Shown piece after piece: positions 3,556 to 10,000 of a stretch of DNA of 10,000 bases. The notes below the pieces were generated by a model. That model saw only the letters and a program-made list of their open reading frames with translations, searched no databases and was not told the origin of the DNA. The stretch spans positions 1 through 10,000 of the forward strand of contig VSJD01000007.1 of NCBI GenBank assembly GCA_008636095.1, in the 5' to 3' direction. Position numbers and translations under genes: made by a program. Numbering within the stretch: the first letter of the stretch is position 1; each line of letters begins with the position of its first letter. The DNA comes from Kiritimatiellota bacterium (GTDB lineage: Bacteria; Verrucomicrobiota; Kiritimatiellia; JAAZAB01).

Positions 3556-3562
3556 CTCCTTT
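3556..3562 (-). promoter_or_regulatory. Strong ribosome binding site overlapping the upstream stop codon
   Basis: The minus strand reads TAAAGGAG (3563 down to 3556). TAA is the stop codon of the 3561-6179 gene, and AAAGGAG is a near-consensus Shine-Dalgarno site placed 7 bases before ATG 3546-3548. This fixes the start of the downstream gene and indicates translational coupling. Confidence 0.85.
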
Positions 3563-6179
3563 AGAATGAACTTTCGCGATTGTCGCCGCTTGGCGTGACA
3601 CGATTGCCATCCATCCGGCGGCCTTCCGTGCCTCCTTTATTGCGGCATTTATCGGCAACCGCCCGCATCGTCGTTGTGGCACCGCCCGTCTTGTCGAAGT
3701 CGAATCCCAATCCGTAGTAACCGTCGGCATTGTCGAACCAGCGGTGATTGGAAGTCGGACAACCGCTCTGCTTGATCAATGCCTCGTTGGCCGAGTTATC
3801 CTCACTCATGTAGGTATCAAAGACAATGCATCCCCAGCCTTTCCGGTTTTCTGCTGTTGTATCGGGAAAAACTGCATTGTCGGCAAGAGGTGCCGGGCAC
3901 AAGGTCGTCCAATCGTTACCGTCCATTTTTACATTATTTGTGTAACCGTTGCCGTCTTCGTAGGCTTCTCCCGCCGTACGTTTCCGGGTGCTGTCGGTGG
4001 TTCCATTCATCCGTTCCAGAAACTTCTTGTTCACATCGCGCGCCTCGGTCTCGTCCGTTGGGTTCCAATAGCCACTTCGCCAACGACCACCTGTCGCCTC
4101 TTTGACTGACGACTCTCCTTCACTGGGATTATCCGAGGCGGAGTAGCAGATAGACCACATGCCGATTGTCCGGTTGGCATCCATACCGGATTTCCAGTTG
4201 TCTGCAAGCCACTTACTGCTTACCTCGACGTAATAACCAAGACCATCCTCACGTTTCGTGACCATATTTGCCTCTGTGCCACACCAGGCATTGCAGGCGT
4301 TCTGACCGTTTGTGGTGTCCTCAGCATACACCGAAAGATGTTTGCCTACGGCACCATGAGATATAACGGTGAAGGCTCCGGCATTTGCCATGTTCTTATA
4401 GTTCGCGAGAGAGCAGTCCTCGAAGTTCGTATCGGAAGCACTGCTGTCACTGAACCAAGTTACCTTAAAACCTTCGTCTTTGATCTGATTCTGAAATTCC
4501 GTGCCGTCGCCGGTTCCCAGCGAAGGCAGTGAAGACCAGACATAGGCATTGCTGCTGACTGGCGTATATGAAATCGTTGGAATAATTACCATTGCCACTT
4601 TATCAGTGCAGGCAAAATTACCGTAACTGTATGACCACGCCACCATCACCTTGCCGGTCACAATGCCATCAACATAAAAACTGCTTGGAGAATTTGTGCT
4701 ACTCAAATCATAGGTTTTCGGAAGCGTGATTTCGGCCGTTTTATTTATAGTTGTCCAGACCTTGATCCTGTCTCCGCCTTCAATCGCTTCCAGCTTTAAC
4801 ACGCCGTTGGTCAACGCAGGGCGCAATGCCAGTTTGATTTCACCCAAATAGTCGGTGTTTGTGTTGATTCCATATCCATTAACGCAAATAATTCGGCCGG
4901 GCGCGTATTCTTCATATTGGTCCTCACCAGCGTCGTCCGCATCAATTGTTCCGTCGTTATTCGAATCAGTATCTATATCTATTTGCACCACCGTCACCGT
5001 GCAAGTGTCGTAACAATTGGTTAAATTGACGGCTGTGGCCAAGACTGTGTAATTAGTAATGATCGAGCCGGCATTAAATACAATACTCGTGCCTACCGCA
5101 CTTCCTTCAATGCTCGCTCCATCCTCCATCTCCGGAGTGATATCCCACTGCACGTTTGCAATGCTGTCCGGTATCAGGTGGAGGATGGTTGTATTGGTAA
5201 CGCCGACGTAAACATTGCTTTCCAGAATATCCACTTTGATCACCAAGAGATTCACTTCGTCATAAAAATTCGTATTATCTTTTGACGTAGCCCGGATTTT
5301 ATAATTCGTGGCAATATTGCCGGGCATGATTACCGCTTGCCATGCGCCGTTGGATATGATTGTCGCACCGTCTGAACCTGACAAATCTGGAATGGTGATC
5401 CACGTCACGCCCTGCGGGATATTCGTTCCGGTCACTGTGTATTGGGCCGGATTCGTGCTCCCCAACAGCGCGAAGGCATCACGCGGCGTAATCCAGATAT
5501 CGGGAATTATCAACTCATAATAAACATTCGTAATATCAACCTGATACGTACCGGAATCGCTTTGATTTATTCCCGGAAAATTGCTTGGAATTACCGGGCC
5601 GATATCAACAACATTGCTCACCGGACCATAAGTCCCCAGACTTCCAACAAAAACGTTTGTGATTGCCACCGGAATATCGTTCGTTGATGTCCACCAGACC
5701 GATGTTGACGATTGGAATGTAATCTTGTTCTGTAAGACCCACAAATACGCACTCCAACCTCCCACGGTATTCAGTGTCCCTCGAACCCATCCGACGTTGT
5801 CGAATATCTTACCGGGATAGTTTGACGGCGTCCAGTTATAAGCCAGTGCCGCATTCCACGCGACCAAGGCCGACCCACGGCATATTGGAAGCGCCATTTG
5901 CCGCTCAATCGCATACGTCTCGCTGGAATTTGTCTTGATCGAACCCTTCACAATATCCGTCAATTTATCAGCCGCCTCATTCAACTGATATTCGGTCGGA
6001 ATTTCAGGAAGGTTGGTAAATGTCACCGCCTCAAACTTAGGGGGAGTATGATGATAATATGGCGTCTCGGCAGCAAGAAATGCAGAATGCAGAATGAAGA
6101 ATGCAGAAACAATTATTGCCCGCGAAACACGCGAAAGGACGCTAAATTTTAAAGGCAAATATTTTACTTCGGATTTCAT
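3561..6179 (-). CDS. Large secreted protein with a putative clan CD (caspase/gingipain-like) cysteine peptidase domain
   Basis: 872 residues from ATG 6177-6179; the next Met is at 95, so this start is the only ATG that includes the signal peptide (about 1-37, core SAFFILHSAFLAA). Residues 45-400 are Thr/Asn-rich beta-sheet-like extracellular modules. Residues 401-422 (DIDTDSNNDGTIDADDAGED) look like a calcium-binding loop, followed by EEYAPGRII. The C-terminal domain (about 555-745) has hydrophobic-SHG (AFTVISHGA, His608) and, 70 residues on, hydrophobic-C (GMWSICYSA, Cys678). Next come SVKEATGG, RSGYW, a helix DVNKKFLERMNG and TAGEAY. That order (H-G, then Cys, then a helix and a G...A-x-Y helix) is what clan CD peptidases (C14, C25, CHAT) show. 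The fold call rests on pattern, not on a search. A cell-surface or secreted protease is the best guess. The N-terminal codons come from a dispersed repeat. Confidence 0.85.
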   Translation of the reverse strand: MKSEVKYLPLKFSVLSRVSRAIIVSAFFILHSAFLAAETPYYHHTPPKFEAVTFTNLPEIPTEYQLNEAADKLTDIVKGSIKTNSSETYAIERQMALPICRGSALVAWNAALAYNWTPSNYPGKIFDNVGWVRGTLNTVGGWSAYLWVLQNKITFQSSTSVWWTSTNDIPVAITNVFVGSLGTYGPVSNVVDIGPVIPSNFPGINQSDSGTYQVDITNVYYELIIPDIWITPRDAFALLGSTNPAQYTVTGTNIPQGVTWITIPDLSGSDGATIISNGAWQAVIMPGNIATNYKIRATSKDNTNFYDEVNLLVIKVDILESNVYVGVTNTTILHLIPDSIANVQWDITPEMEDGASIEGSAVGTSIVFNAGSIITNYTVLATAVNLTNCYDTCTVTVVQIDIDTDSNNDGTIDADDAGEDQYEEYAPGRIICVNGYGINTNTDYLGEIKLALRPALTNGVLKLEAIEGGDRIKVWTTINKTAEITLPKTYDLSSTNSPSSFYVDGIVTGKVMVAWSYSYGNFACTDKVAMVIIPTISYTPVSSNAYVWSSLPSLGTGDGTEFQNQIKDEGFKVTWFSDSSASDTNFEDCSLANYKNMANAGAFTVISHGAVGKHLSVYAEDTTNGQNACNAWCGTEANMVTKREDGLGYYVEVSSKWLADNWKSGMDANRTIGMWSICYSASDNPSEGESSVKEATGGRWRSGYWNPTDETEARDVNKKFLERMNGTTDSTRKRTAGEAYEDGNGYTNNVKMDGNDWTTLCPAPLADNAVFPDTTAENRKGWGCIVFDTYMSEDNSANEALIKQSGCPTSNHRWFDNADGYYGLGFDFDKTGGATTTMRAVADKCRNKGGTEGRRMDGNRVTPSGDNRESSF
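6078..6108. repeat. 31-base signal-peptide-encoding repeat, copy 1
   Basis: This stretch (plus strand: AAATGCAGAATGCAGAATGA and onward) matches 6920-6950 at 29 of 31 bases. It is itself a short-period repeat of GAATGCA. On the minus strand both copies are read in the same frame as the core of a signal peptide (FFILHS[AT]FL). Confidence 0.85.
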
Positions 6180-6218
6180 TCTATCTCTTTTTCGCGTTAT
6201 TTAGCGTGCTTAGCGGGC
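6118..6218. repeat. Inverted-arm dispersed repeat, copy A, spanning a gene start
   Basis: The left arm 6118-6146 (GCCCGCGAAACACGCGAAAG...) and the reverse complement of the right arm 6190-6218 match at 23 of 29 bases, so the element is about 101 bases with imperfect terminal inverted repeats. The start codon of the peptidase-like gene (6177-6179) lies inside it. The stop codon of the next gene upstream (TAG, 6218-6220) overlaps its right edge. The whole gap between the two genes is therefore repeat. Confidence 0.8.
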
Positions 6219-7168
6219 TAATCCTTTTTATAAAACATACCCGAAAGTGCGATCAATGCGTTTCGCATATCAATTAAATCCGCCTGCGAGCCGGGGGTAT
6301 TGGTAAATACCGGCACAGTCCCATAAAACAACATCCAATGCCGGATAATCTTCTGCCTGGCCAACTCGCGCACTACCGTTGAATTGCCATCGCTATCGTC
6401 CAGAGGATCATACCCATGCGCCACTTCCCAGCCATCGGAAAGTCCGTCACCATCCGTGTCAGGATTATATGGGTCCGTCCCGTGGGTCGCTTCCAACCAA
6501 TCCGGCAAACCGTCGCCATCGGAGTCCACCGCTGAATCAAAACTGAACACGTATTTTACCTGACCAATGTTGGCCAGGGCGAAGTCGTTGGTGGACGAAG
6601 CATTGCCCCAGGGATAATAGCCCGGCATGTTTGCAGGGAAAGTATTGGTTAAGTTGAACTCGTGGAGGCGGTCATAAAACGGCTGAACCACGTATTTTAC
6701 CTGGCCGAGATTGGCAAGATAGTAATTGTTGGAGTTGGAAAAGGCAGCGATCAGCGCGGAAATCGTGGAACCGGCGCCGAAATAGGCTTCCATTTCGTCG
6801 CGGGCGTTAGCGGCCATCCATTTCAATTGGCCCTGGGTAATGGGCGCGTAATCGTTCGGGGACAGGTTGGGATCAACTGCACCACGGGTGAGCCACCACG
6901 AAGGACCTTGGGCGAAAAGAAATGTAGAATGCAGAATGAAGAATGTAGAAACCAAGAAGCGCAAAGAAGGCAAGAATATTACCCGCGAAACACTTGACTT
7001 GCTTACTGAAACCACAAAAGGCAAAAAAGGAAGGGACGTTTGCCCGCGAAACACGCGAAATAACGCTAAAGTTTTAAATTTTAAAGGCGAATATTTTTCG
7101 CAATTTATTTTCCGCGCCAAACGCAGAAGAAAAATTGCGAAAAAACCGCTTTCACTTCGTGATTTCAT
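6218..7168 (-). CDS. Secreted protein with GQ[LV]K motifs and calcium-binding (thrombospondin type 3-like) repeats
   Basis: 316 residues from ATG 7166-7168. The next Met is 118, so an ATG start forces a long leader. Residues 1-64 are encoded by dispersed repeats, and the real signal peptide is likely 65-87 (FLVSTFFILHSTFLFAQ). An unannotated TTG start closer to it is possible. The mature part has three copies of xGQxK: QGQLKW (112-117), LGQVKY (154-159) and IGQVKY (201-206). The first two are followed by helices and the second by QPFYDRL. Residues 213-261 hold two Asp-rich loops (DSDGDGLPDWLE, DTDGDGLSDGWE) and a final DDSDGN. These are the calcium-binding repeats often found in PVC surface proteins. 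I know the GQLK motif as recurrent in such proteins, without an assigned role. It is probably structural or adhesive. Confidence 0.82.
   Translation of the reverse strand: MKSRSESGFFAIFLLRLARKINCEKYSPLKFKTLALFRVFRGQTSLPFLPFVVSVSKSSVSRVIFLPSLRFLVSTFFILHSTFLFAQGPSWWLTRGAVDPNLSPNDYAPITQGQLKWMAANARDEMEAYFGAGSTISALIAAFSNSNNYYLANLGQVKYVVQPFYDRLHEFNLTNTFPANMPGYYPWGNASSTNDFALANIGQVKYVFSFDSAVDSDGDGLPDWLEATHGTDPYNPDTDGDGLSDGWEVAHGYDPLDDSDGNSTVVRELARQKIIRHWMLFYGTVPVFTNTPGSQADLIDMRNALIALSGMFYKKD
6920..6950. repeat. 31-base signal-peptide-encoding repeat, copy 2
   Basis: 29 of 31 bases match 6078-6108. On the minus strand it encodes STFFILHSTFL in the signal peptide of the GQ[LV]K protein, in the same frame as copy 1. 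Confidence 0.85.
6948..7054. repeat. Degenerate tandem duplication of about 60 bases within a leader sequence
   Basis: GAAACCA begins at 6948 and 7008, and CCCGCGAAACAC at 6982 and 7043. The intervening bases align with scattered differences (for example GCAAAGAAGG versus GCAAAAAAGG). On the minus strand the two units encode related hydrophobic stretches (SLPFLPFVVS and FLPSLRFLVS), which explains the long leader of the protein starting at 7168. Confidence 0.65.
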
Positions 7169-7237
7169 TTTATTGCTTTTTTTAGCGACCTTTAGCGCCT
7201 GCCCGACGTAGCTTTAGCGAAGACGGATGTTTAGCGG
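7043..7237. repeat. Inverted-arm dispersed repeat, copy B, spanning a gene start
   Basis: The left arm 7043-7070 (CCCGCGAAACACGCGAAATA...) is like copy A (6120-6146). After it, TTTAAAGGCGAATATTTT (7080-7097) matches TTTTAAAGGCAAATATTTTA in copy A, and GATTTCATTTTATT (7161-7174) matches GATTTCATTCTAT. The right arm (7181-7237) has TTTAGCG units interrupted by a 30-base insert. The ATG of the GQ[LV]K protein (7166-7168) is at the same place within the repeat as the ATG in copy A. Copy B has about 55 extra internal bases, which resemble the inside of copy C. Confidence 0.75.
7198..7227. repeat. 30-base insert nested in the right arm of copy B
   Basis: CCTGCCCGACGTAGC...GCGAAGACGGA sits between TTTAGCG and TGTTTAGCGG, where copies A and C have only TG. 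A related 33-base insert occupies the same place at 9437-9469. Its end GCGAAGACGGA recurs in reverse at 9989-10000. Confidence 0.6.
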
Positions 7238-7238
7238 A

Positions 7239-7622
7239 CTATCTCGTGTTCGCTATCCTTTCCCATTCTATCTTCGGATAATGCCCAAAATTTACCAATA
7301 ATCCAAGTTTGAAGCCCGTTGCCTGGAGATAATTGATCAACTGCGCCCGATGCTCATCCGCCAGTTGGGAAACCGCTTTAATCTCCATAATGATCTTGTC
7401 ATAACAAATGAAATCAGGTGAATAGGTCTGTTTGAGTTGACGTCCTTTGTATTCCAATGTTAGGGATTTCTGCGAGATGAACGGCACACCCTGCAAATCA
7501 AGTTCTATTTCCAGGCATTCCTGGTAAACAGGCTCAAGAAAACCGCAGCCTTTGTCTTTATAGACCTCAAAACACGCCCCCATAATCTTAAATGCTTCGT
7601 CCTTATAAATTAAATCGTTCAT
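7239..7622 (-). CDS. GxxExxY family protein (PD-(D/E)XK nuclease superfamily)
   Basis: 127 residues, the usual length for this family. It carries the defining motif GFLEPVY (Gly27, Glu30, Tyr33) and a PD-(D/E)XK signature: PD with Asp70, then Glu80-Ile-Lys82 in IIMEIKA. The tail contains QLINYLQATGFKLGLLVNFG, the helix and strand found in most members. The family is abundant in PVC, Bacteroidetes and Lentisphaerae genomes, often in many copies. A DNA-cleaving role is inferred from the fold and has not, to my knowledge, been settled. ATG 7620-7622 has only a weak GGGAAAA upstream. No signal peptide, so it is cytoplasmic, unlike all the neighbours except the transposase. It lies directly between copy B (its stop TAG borders that repeat) and copy C of the dispersed repeat, which hints at a link between the protein and the repeats. 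Confidence 0.92.
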   Translation of the reverse strand: MNDLIYKDEAFKIMGACFEVYKDKGCGFLEPVYQECLEIELDLQGVPFISQKSLTLEYKGRQLKQTYSPDFICYDKIIMEIKAVSQLADEHRAQLINYLQATGFKLGLLVNFGHYPKIEWERIANTR

Positions 7623-7632
7623 TTAGAATTTT

Positions 7633-7774
7633 CCCGCCAAACACGCTAAATTACGCGAAATAAGCGGTTTTTCCCGCAATTTTGACGGCACAAAGCGCCA
7701 ATAAAGTTACGAGAAAAATTCATTGCTTCGCAAAAATCAATTCACTTTTCGCGTCTTTTAGCGTGTTTAGCGGG
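7633..7774. repeat. 142-base MITE-like element with 28-base inverted arms, copy C
   Basis: Left arm 7633-7660 (CCCGCCAAACACGCTAAATT...) matches the reverse complement of right arm 7747-7774 at 25 of 28 bases. The interior (AAGCGGTTTTTCCCGCAATTTT, about 7662-7683, quoted here in part) resembles the extra internal part of copy B in reverse orientation. On the minus strand an ATG (7721-7723) opens a 26-codon leader-like frame ending LFRVI, then TAG, similar to the leaders in copies A and B but closed. It stands just before the GxxExxY gene start. Confidence 0.8.
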
Positions 7775-7811
7775 CTATTTCTTATCTTGTTGCGGGCTAA
7801 ACTTGTTTCCC

Positions 7812-9395
7812 TTACTGATTTGTATATACTCCCATCGGGACATCGCCGGCGGGCGCGCCGGCTGTGATGGAACCAGTGATATCAAGAGAGCCATTGACCA
7901 CGCCGCCGGCCGTGCTCAAAAAGGCGTTTGCCTCATTGGTCGCCGCTGTCCCCAGTCCCAGATTATCTCGGGCAGTGCCGGCATTGGCAACATCCGAGAG
8001 ATTGTTAGCGGCGATCAAGGCGCCCGCGTTTGTGCTCAATGCGCCAACTTGTGTTGCGGTTATGCCGGTAATTTGGGAACCATCGCCATTCGGCGATAGA
8101 AATGCTCCGGCCTCATTCGTTGCCGCGGAACCAAGGCCAAGATTGGCGCGGGCGGCGGCTTGATCGGCAATATCCGAAAGATTATTTGAGGCTGACAAGT
8201 TTCCTGTAGGCCAGGTTGTGCGTGTTTCTCCACCCAGGGTAATAGCCGAGACGATATTCGTGCCATCCACGCGGGCATTGCCGACCACATGCAGTTGTTC
8301 CGCCGGGTTGTTGGTCCCGATACCCACTTTGCCCATCAAGACGTTGACGCCGGAGGCGCTGGCCTGACTGATGCCGTTGGAGGAGATTGCCAGCGTGGTA
8401 ACATTGCTGGAGGTAGTCGCCGGATACCTCACGATCACGATACCGGAGCCGCCCGGTTTACCACAATTACTTGAGTTATCATACCCACCTCCTCCACCAC
8501 CTCCAGTATTATTCTGTCCAGGGGTAGCATATGGGTTATCATCATTACCATTCCCATCCCCACCACCATCGAAACCCAACCCCCATTGATTATCCCCCCC
8601 TTGGTCGCACCCCCCACCACCGCCACCGTAACCTTTTGCAACGCCAGAAATACTATTTGTAATCCCAAATCCTCCATTCGGTCTTGCATCTGTATATGAC
8701 AAACCAATACTACCAGCTCCACCTCCGCCCGCACCGCGATAGCCATAAGCACCGTTACCACCATTGCCACCCGCAAAACCCTTGCCCGGTATACCTGCTG
8801 CCCCTGTTTTATAGGTTTGTGCATCACCGCCTCCACCAGAACTGCCAGTTGATGCTTCCCCTGGGACCCACCCGTGACTTCCACCCTTTCCGCCACCTAA
8901 AGCCGTTATGTTTGCAAAAATAGAGTTTGATCCCTTACAACCCTCTCCACCACCTTCGCCAATCACTACAATATTTGTACCCGACAAAGATACACTATTA
9001 GTATAATACACCTCTCCGCCCCCACCCCCTCCACCAATTTGATTACCTCCCCATCCGCCCCCCGCCACAACCAACACATCGCAAGTCAACGACCCGCCAG
9101 GCACAATGAAATTAGCTGTTCCAACATTCGTAAACGTATGAATGCGATAATTGCCATTGGTGGTGATTGTTCCTCCGGTTGCTGTGCCACCCCCGTTGGT
9201 TCCACCGGCGGTTGTGGAAAAATACATGTTTCCCATAATCGTGGCGTCTTTTGTGACCGTCAGGTTGTCGGTTGTTAAATCACCCGCCCAGGCGGAGGCG
9301 GCTGAAAAACAGACGACGGACGACAGACACCAGATGACAGCCCGGAGAAGACAAAGGTCAGTAAGAAAACGAAGTGATTTTATTTTCGTTGTCAT
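7812..9395 (-). CDS. Secreted glycine-rich and phage-tail-fibre-like surface protein
   Basis: 527 residues from ATG 9393-9395, chosen because GGAG lies about 10 bases upstream and a signal peptide follows (residues 1-37, ending ASAWA). An ATG 18 codons earlier lies within a repeat. Residues 82-324 form a glycine-rich domain: HTFTNVGTANFIVPGG, then DVLVVAGGG, long Gly runs, and the closing GGSGIVIVRYP, which is the classic end of this domain type. Residues 357-376 (VGIGTNNPAEQLHVVGNARV) and two 60-residue-spaced repeats, NNLSDIADQAAARANLGLGSAATNEA (404-429, quoted in part) and NNLSDVANAGTARDNLGLG (464-482), are typical of phage tail fibres and trimeric surface proteins. There is no C-terminal chaperone or anchor: it ends abruptly at GVYTNQ, next to repeats. 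It is probably an extracellular adhesin or structural fibre. Confidence 0.87.
   Translation of the reverse strand: MTTKIKSLRFLTDLCLLRAVIWCLSSVVCFSAASAWAGDLTTDNLTVTKDATIMGNMYFSTTAGGTNGGGTATGGTITTNGNYRIHTFTNVGTANFIVPGGSLTCDVLVVAGGGWGGNQIGGGGGGGEVYYTNSVSLSGTNIVVIGEGGGEGCKGSNSIFANITALGGGKGGSHGWVPGEASTGSSGGGGDAQTYKTGAAGIPGKGFAGGNGGNGAYGYRGAGGGGAGSIGLSYTDARPNGGFGITNSISGVAKGYGGGGGGCDQGGDNQWGLGFDGGGDGNGNDDNPYATPGQNNTGGGGGGGYDNSSNCGKPGGSGIVIVRYPATTSSNVTTLAISSNGISQASASGVNVLMGKVGIGTNNPAEQLHVVGNARVDGTNIVSAITLGGETRTTWPTGNLSASNNLSDIADQAAARANLGLGSAATNEAGAFLSPNGDGSQITGITATQVGALSTNAGALIAANNLSDVANAGTARDNLGLGTAATNEANAFLSTAGGVVNGSLDITGSITAGAPAGDVPMGVYTNQ
9310..9330. repeat. Short-period GAC repeat within a signal-peptide region
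   Basis: Plus-strand CAGACGACGGACGACAGACA is a degenerate GACGAC/CAGAC repeat. On the minus strand it encodes CLSSVV inside the signal peptide of the glycine-rich protein. As in the two genes downstream, a hydrophobic export signal is built from low-complexity DNA. Confidence 0.4.
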
Positions 9396-9420: not shown

Positions 9421-9480
9421 TTCGCATTATTTAGCGCCTGTCCTGCCATAGCTTCTAAGCGAAGGCGGATGTTTAACGAG
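9421..9480. repeat. Solo arm of the dispersed repeat, copy D, with nested 33-base insert
   Basis: TTCGCATTATTTAGCG (9421-9436), a 33-base insert (9437-9469: CCTGTCCTGCCATAGC...GCGAAGGCGGA), then TGTTTAACGAG match the right arm of copy B (7181-7237), including the position of the insert. No left arm is found. It fills the gap between the stop at 9493 and the start at 9395. Confidence 0.65.
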
Positions 9481-9492
9481 CAAATTATTTTC

Positions 9493-10000
9493 TTACAACT
9501 TCACATTCCCATCTATAACCACTTTCACGTTCTTACCCTTAATATTCAGATTTTCGTTGTAGGTTCCGGATTTGATGACCATCATTGACGCGCCATCGGC
9601 GTCAACTGCGGCCATGCCTTTGTGGACCGTCTTTTTTGGCCCCTTCTTCTTCCCGGAAATGGCCGGCGCCCGGCCCGTAAAGGTGTCGTTGCCCCGGACC
9701 TGATCCACGTAGATAATGCCTTTCTTATCCTTGTCTTCATCCCTGTCATCGTCTATATCCGGGTCGGGCGGCACAGGACTGTTCGTGTTCGTTGTATGAA
9801 AACAGGCTTCATAGTCGCTTATGCCGTCGCCATCCGTATCCACGCAATAATCCGACGTCCCCAGCTGTCTTTCCTGCTCATTATCAAGACCATCTCCATC
9901 TTCATCAATGTAGACCAATCCTTCATAAACGATTACCTCTCCTTCCGTCTTCGCCCCTTCGCTTGAACTCAGGGCTACGCCGGACAAGTCCGTCTTCGCC
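9493..10000 (-). CDS. Secreted-type protein with calcium-binding repeats and a short beta-helix-like end, N-terminus outside window
   Basis: The frame is open to the window edge (169 codons visible), so the start lies outside; a TTG at 9985-9987 is an unlikely start. The first part is a 15-codon in-frame duplication (AKTDLSGVALSSSEG then AKTEGE). Then come two calcium-binding loops (YIDEDGDGLDNEQE and CVDTDGDGISDYE, about 9807-9910) and an acidic linker (DPDIDDDRDEDKDKKG). After the linker, IIYVDQVRGNDTFTGR (9711 onwards) begins the pattern of DUF1565/right-handed beta-helix proteins: YVD..GND..TG, then GPKKTVHKG, VIKSGTYNENLNIKG. The protein ends at VVIDGNVKL after roughly one helical turn, much shorter than usual for such domains. 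It may be truncated or a minimal C-terminal module. Probably surface-exposed or exported. Confidence 0.78.
   Translation of the reverse strand, partial: AKTDLSGVALSSSEGAKTEGEVIVYEGLVYIDEDGDGLDNEQERQLGTSDYCVDTDGDGISDYEACFHTTNTNSPVPPDPDIDDDRDEDKDKKGIIYVDQVRGNDTFTGRAPAISGKKKGPKKTVHKGMAAVDADGASMMVIKSGTYNENLNIKGKNVKVVIDGNVKL
9944..10000. repeat. In-frame duplicated TCCGTCTTCGCC repeat with small palindrome
   Basis: TCCGTCTTCGCC occurs at 9944-9955 and 9989-10000, 45 bases apart, so the duplication keeps the frame of the partial gene. CGGAC-AA-GTCCG (9981-9992) is a perfect small hairpin. The reverse complement GGCGAAGACGGA is the end of the nested insert at 7198-7227, so coding and intergenic copies of one short repeat family coexist here. 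Confidence 0.6.

Follow-up and report, generated by a model that had tools for sequence, protein, structure and literature searches.

The sequences compared here make it fairly probable that intergenic repeats have been recruited as leaders of secreted proteins and that start codon and signal peptide have been exchanged among secreted proteins that are otherwise unrelated, without the repeats having been purpose-built for this role. The window, which is the whole 10,000-nt stretch of DNA that was analysed, comes from an uncultured bacterium and carries genes A, B and C (Table 1), and the named relatives are assemblies of Kiritimatiellae, Lentisphaerae and Verrucomicrobia.

Repeats within the leaders of genes A and B

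In the ORF translations, the frames of A and B are both open through the repeats. Bases 6078-6108 and 6920-6950 are identical at 29 of 31 positions, are tandemly repeated with a period of 7, and read VS[AT]FFILHS[AT]FL in the open frames of both genes, which bears out the original prediction of a 31-base block coding FFILHS[AT]FL in A and B. This shared block consists of tandem GAATGCA heptamers and is distinct from the adjoining CGCGAAACACGCGAAA arm repeat. A single frame through the whole of the shared leader had also been proposed; it holds at K-Y-x-PLKF and within the array but is lost in the arm, which reads FSVLSRVSRA in A and LALFRVFRG in B. The mature proteins are unrelated, as had been expected, since BLASTP between mature A and mature B found no similarity (best E 1.3).

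Gene C is a third putative secreted gene with a period-7 array in its signal peptide. The gene C homologues have leaders of another heptamer type, and no run of 7 residues is common to gene C leaders and those of A or B. Second copies of B, A and probably C are grouped on contig C317 of genome G000 (L058, L125 and L151), and therefore the A/B/C cluster appears to be duplicated in G000. In the A paralogue of the window's genome (A2), a similar repeat precedes a leader of the ordinary type.

Table 1. Positions of genes, heptamer arrays, arm repeats and a candidate start codon in the window
Feature	Position	Strand	Remarks
Gene A	3561..6179	-	872 aa, without a Pfam match; leader runs through arm and array
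Gene B	6218..7168	-	316 aa, TSP3 repeats; leader read through repeats
Gene C	7812..9395	-	glycine-rich domain; putative secreted protein; start ATG 9395
GAATGCA heptamer array	6078..6110	-	codes VSAFFILHSAFL, hydrophobic core of the gene A leader
GAATGCA heptamer array	6920..6952	-	codes VSTFFILHSTFL, hydrophobic core of the gene B leader
Second kind of heptamer array	9309..9340	-	in gene C signal peptide (IWCLSSVVC); period 7, differs from GAATGCA
Palindromic arm repeat, copy A	6116..6226		arms about 6116-6153 and 6189-6226; holds ATG 6179; its - strand provides gene B with its TAG stop
Palindromic arm repeat, copy B	7040..7240		arm 7040-7077; ATG 7168 inside; arm and array separated by other repeats
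Palindromic arm repeat, copy C	7630..7783		arms 7630-7667 and 7746-7783; lies in the gap ahead of the PDDEXK_3 gene
Alternative start of gene B (candidate)	TTG 6973	-	MPSLRFLVSTFFILHSTFLFAQG

One strand of the GAATGCA array has no stop in any frame. Since 7 is not divisible by 3 and the frame moves on by one base per unit, the three frames of this strand all yield one cyclic heptapeptide, CILHSAF (mean hydropathy 1.63). Therefore, no particular frame has to be caught. The opposite strand gives the heptapeptide ECRMQNA, with a mean hydropathy of -1.26. Hydropathy is 1.30 for the unit GAATGAA and 0.73 for GAATGTA, and 1145 of the 16384 possible heptamers are open and reach a hydropathy of 1.5. 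The frame bias implied by the original prediction is not demonstrable; by a hand count, six independent leader arrays use the three frames 4:2:0. Removal of the array lowers the hydrophobic maximum of window A, window B (read from TTG), the B paralogue, the A orthologue in genome G007 and locus L043, changes it little in L050, and leaves it unchanged in a pilin-like gene.

ATG 6179 in A and ATG 7168 in B are the only in-frame ATGs ahead of the mature parts. The claim that each repeat copy holds the only ATG near the 5' end of its gene is accurate to that extent, but other in-frame starts exist in both genes, namely TTG 6158 in A and TTG 7120, 7024, 6973, 6964 and 6955 and GTG 7054 and 7015 in B. 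In the G009 orthologue of B, a stop interrupts the frame of the MKSRSES start module, and the DNA of this orthologue, read by eye, has an ATG at the position equivalent to TTG 6973 of window B; the true start of gene B may for this reason be TTG 6973. For A, the sequence MKSEVKYLP recurs in the homologue P0166, and ATG 6179 is therefore favoured.

Arrays and arm repeats between genes

Allowing at most 2 mismatches, GAATGNAGAATGNAGAATG occurs at 65+68 places in the 3.81-Mb genome, compared with 1+0 for the reversed pattern. Of the five genomes of the window's genus, four have the pattern commonly and G009 has it sparsely, at 7 places; five other genomes of the family have 0 to 5 places. A related looser pattern matched in 45 of 387 genomes drawn from the phylum, some by CATTCTT variants only, and its reversed control also matched in some of the 387, up to 4+13 in one genome. 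Many other period-7 arrays, for example with GTCAGAG, GACGACA or ACGGCTG units and some in mixed runs, were seen at L032, L050, L057 and L062.

The positions of 117 arrays in three genomes (44, 41 and 32) were determined with a simple custom gene caller, on contigs that were mostly picked for holding arrays and with the places in G007 and G008 sampled in part. The gene edge lay at a median distance of 4 nt on the AAATGCAG side and 124 nt on the other side, and 96 of the 107 arrays with both edges known were nearer to a gene on the AAATGCAG side (p 4e-18). An edge fell within -50 to +15 nt in 76 of 115 cases on this side and in 3 of 109 on the other. The AAATGCAG side faces a gene stop in 69 arrays and a gene start in 46, and 16 of the 69 stop-side arrays start exactly 2 nt past the stop codon, as TGA-AG-AAATGCAG. 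The orientation bias relative to genes that had been looked for is strong, but it is a general polarity to gene edges, more often to stops than to starts; the position rule concerns genes in general and is unrelated to secretion. Purine skew of all gaps was considered as the cause of array orientation and set aside as weak (94 of 150 tandem gaps, and 20 of 32 in nine arbitrary contigs).

In many cases, two arrays form an inverted pair and occupy the whole gap from one stop to the next start; the raw, uncontrolled folding energies of two such gaps are -38.8 and -31.5 kcal/mol. Two MITE-like traits were found. The array pairs of these gaps have terminal arms in inverted orientation that flank a short spacer and include no transposase gene, and the repeats are present or absent at orthologous sites, in two gaps that were compared. 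Upstream of the MRILTTYITRQF gene, G006 has a 6-nt gap, G000 and G008 have GAATGCA arms, and G007 has a different inverted heptamer repeat; upstream of the MNALVDQF gene, there are arrays in G000 and G008, another repeat in G009 and a short gap in G003. Across the orthologous gaps L213-L217 and L221-L226, the same short gap holds different inverted-repeat families, or none, depending on the species.

The arm motif CCCGCNAAACACGCNAAA occurs at 18+14 places in the genome, compared with 2+4 for the control, and inspection by ORF of 30 loci of these 32 places gave no further clear case of an arm repeat in the leader of another gene. A PDDEXK_3 nuclease gene (window 7239-7622) lies between two arm-repeat copies, and a damaged PDDEXK_3 copy at G000 C27:2072-2381 (L263) lies between inverted arms. 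This nuclease was considered as the mobiliser of the arm repeat and not retained, as four copies in the genome, one of them damaged between inverted arms, are too few to conclude. A further dispersed sequence (about GCGAAGACGGATGTTTAGCG and relatives) is present at 7200-7236, 9440-9478 and 9961-10000, seemingly nested in arm-repeat copies. At the start of the window, an IS200-like Y1 transposase gene (2-355), which we take to be RAYT-like, lies near imperfect direct repeats with GGTCTGACCCC/GGGCTGACCCC (371-430 and 2529-2620) that could be the REP sequences of this transposase. A search of Rfam gave no structured RNA match at gathering thresholds in the window.

Leaders in common between unrelated proteins

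The frame was read for 41 of the 46 start-side arrays, 5 being dropped because no gene lay within 150 nt, and was found closed in 12 and open in 29. Seven of the 41 arrays are clearly inside the coding leader of a secreted or pilin-like protein, namely those of window A, window B, the B paralogue (L058), the G007 A orthologue (L193), a pilin-like gene (L032), L043 and L050; at the sequence level, a dispersed repeat would here be translated as part of a signal peptide. The L032 array runs straight into SCAFTLIELL, the motif from which we assume this gene to be pilin-like. Two more arrays, L182 and L203, are ambiguous; both genes are presumably TadE-like by motif, and L203 has an ATG 17 nt past the array. 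Among the open arrays, 16 of 29 have an ATG within 30 nt past the array, including the lipoprotein-like gene L191, and 4 could be assigned neither way (L052, L179, L202 and L173:3809), the last of which is probably a spurious antisense frame.

These counts bear on the possibility that the leaders are an annotation artefact, in which the frames are open merely since the strand has no stops and the real starts lie elsewhere, or A and B are no longer exported. The hydrophobic heptamer strand is indeed stop-free in all frames, most other arrays, including those 16, precede an ordinary start, and the MKSRSES frame is broken in G009. We nevertheless consider this explanation rather unlikely: window A, window B, the B paralogue and the G007 A orthologue have no ATG for at least 84 nt past the array, well into the conserved mature part; the array of the pilin-like gene leads directly to its SCAFTLIELL motif; and in homologues from many contigs, the array-coded leader stays in register with the mature part that follows it.

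Recruitment of repeats as leaders, the reading that we prefer, is accompanied by sharing of the leaders themselves. The match of window B to the B paralogue (228 of 240 bases) sets in exactly where the array has its outer edge and continues through the rest of the compared stretch. Between the B paralogue and the G007 A orthologue, 85 of 98 bases agree over start codon and signal peptide, and the alignment stops at the mature part. The MKSRSES module is common to window B and the G009 A orthologue (104/127); as a start module it occurs at 4 places in 10 genomes, compared with 1 for the reversed control, with three of the four at A or B loci and the fourth in G001. ATG-plus-leader modules do therefore precede unrelated proteins, as expected of a dedicated mobile element that would bring along start codon and signal peptide and capture the coding sequence behind it. 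However, the ATG-bearing module is present at just these 4 places, arrays are more frequent at gene 3' ends (69) than at 5' ends (46), and most copies are non-coding and stand beside ordinary genes. Given the low number of MKSRSES places, the gene-edge polarity and the mostly non-coding arrays, a dedicated capture element was rejected as the main reading, and we regard it as very improbable. The portable start plus secretion signal of the original prediction survives in that repeats appear to form signal peptides and that start and signal peptide are common to unrelated mature proteins, but not as a purpose-built element, with 7 clear and 2 ambiguous arrays of 41 being leader-coding.

Leaders were also cut from database homologues, yielding 57 of 60 for B and 38 of 64 for A (3 and 26 were dropped; the window's own A and the B paralogue are among the proteins used). 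Homologue DNA from contigs covered 7 loci, few of which had usable leaders. Repeat-like patterns, which were picked by eye from the same proteins that they score, occur in 33 of the 57 B and 15 of the 38 A leaders, in none of the mature segments and in none of 48 distant homologues; leaders without such a pattern, 24 of 57 for B and 23 of 38 for A, are ordinary. At least 8 residues in a row are common to 39 of 2166 A/B leader pairs, which involve 10 A and 19 B proteins and are not independent of each other, and runs of this length were absent from shuffled leaders, mature pairs and leader-mature pairs.

Common leaders would also be expected if the neighbours A and B had kept their leader by ordinary homology, or copied it by gene conversion, with the repeats as bystanders. 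A and B homologues are neighbours, both with a second copy on C317, the longest contigs of several database pairs are equal in length, and three of the four known MKSRSES places are near A or B, all of which is consistent with this view. On the other hand, mature A and B are unrelated, several kinds of leader, built of repeats found elsewhere in the genome, precede both families, and array-coded leaders are also present in the unrelated pilin-like gene, L043 and L050. We consider ordinary homology unlikely.

Under recruitment and exchange, the raw material would be the many intergenic palindromic repeats whose arms consist of tandem heptamers (GAATGCA and others) or the CGCGAAACACGCGAAA motif. 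Such repeats would lie flush between the stop of one gene and the start of the next, as observed for GAATGCA, and the array strand facing the downstream gene would offer three open frames, always with the observed CILHSAF. Read-through of a repeat would have replaced the usual 5' coding end of A, B and a few further secreted or pilin-like genes, so that the array forms the hydrophobic core of the signal peptide of a protein that is presumably translated and exported. Start and signal peptide would then have been swapped among unrelated mature proteins, between which they are seen to be common, most likely via recombination at shared repeats. The repeats would not have evolved for the leader role; rather, intergenic sequence would have been recruited repeatedly.

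Known repeats and the origin of export signals

Four described systems were compared, as far as the available portions of their accounts reach. In Yersinia, the palindromic repeat RU-2/YPAL forms part of the YPO1552 signal peptide (Delihas 2007; PMC2759123, PMC2229807), and YPO1552-related proteins of other genera have unrelated signal peptides (PMC2759123, PMC2229807). The likeness lies in a dispersed repeat translated within a signal peptide; RU-2/YPAL is, however, one longer element, not a heptamer array, with few cases, and the portions available describe neither frame independence nor a leader common to unrelated proteins. The class 3 repeats of Geobacter metallireducens are paired tandem heptanucleotide sites between genes with the consensus MTYCTGA, proposed as binding sites of a global regulator, and in a sister species the same proBA gap is occupied by a different sequence (PMC2700814). 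The arrays studied here are likewise tandem heptamers paired on opposite strands between genes, but their unit ATTCTGC differs from that consensus by one base, and the available part of the Geobacter account describes no signal-peptide role.

The TAACTGA direct repeats of Beggiatoaceae are intergenic, lie a few nt from start codons, with some at ORF ends, and are translatable in one orientation into the repeating heptapeptide LSVISYQ; they have been proposed as sites of translational regulation (PMC4679880). They resemble the present arrays as intergenic heptamers by starts that are translatable in one orientation, but the heptamer differs (GAATGCA here), the repeats are mostly direct and not inverted, and no leader exchange is described in the portion available. 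Rickettsia palindromic elements, about 150 bp long, lie in frame in unrelated protein genes, including ORFs of metabolic genes, and each codes a conserved peptide (PMC10969869). By description, not by sequence, these are comparable as palindromic repeats in frame in unrelated protein genes; unlike the present repeats, they are, according to the part available, not specifically secretion leaders. Heptamer arrays as exchanged secretion leaders, with a frame-independent core in several unrelated leaders, were not among the matches listed in a literature search that was thin on subscription journals. Repeat-built signal peptides and paired heptamer arrays have each already been described, and it is their combination and the leader exchange that look new.

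More tentatively, intergenic heptamer hairpins could constitute a standing, frame-independent reservoir of secretion leaders, from which a gene beside an array might gain an export signal in any frame, with recombination between the many copies shuffling start-plus-signal cassettes among unrelated secreted proteins, so that in this lineage the evolution of leaders would be modular and separate from that of mature domains. Where a genome is rich in repeats, an N-terminus may be a translated repeat, which bears on start annotation and homology searches. The export signal was apparently gained or swapped rather than built from scratch, and non-coding repeats, for which the right frame is not needed, would offer bacteria a concrete way to acquire export signals and for these to spread.
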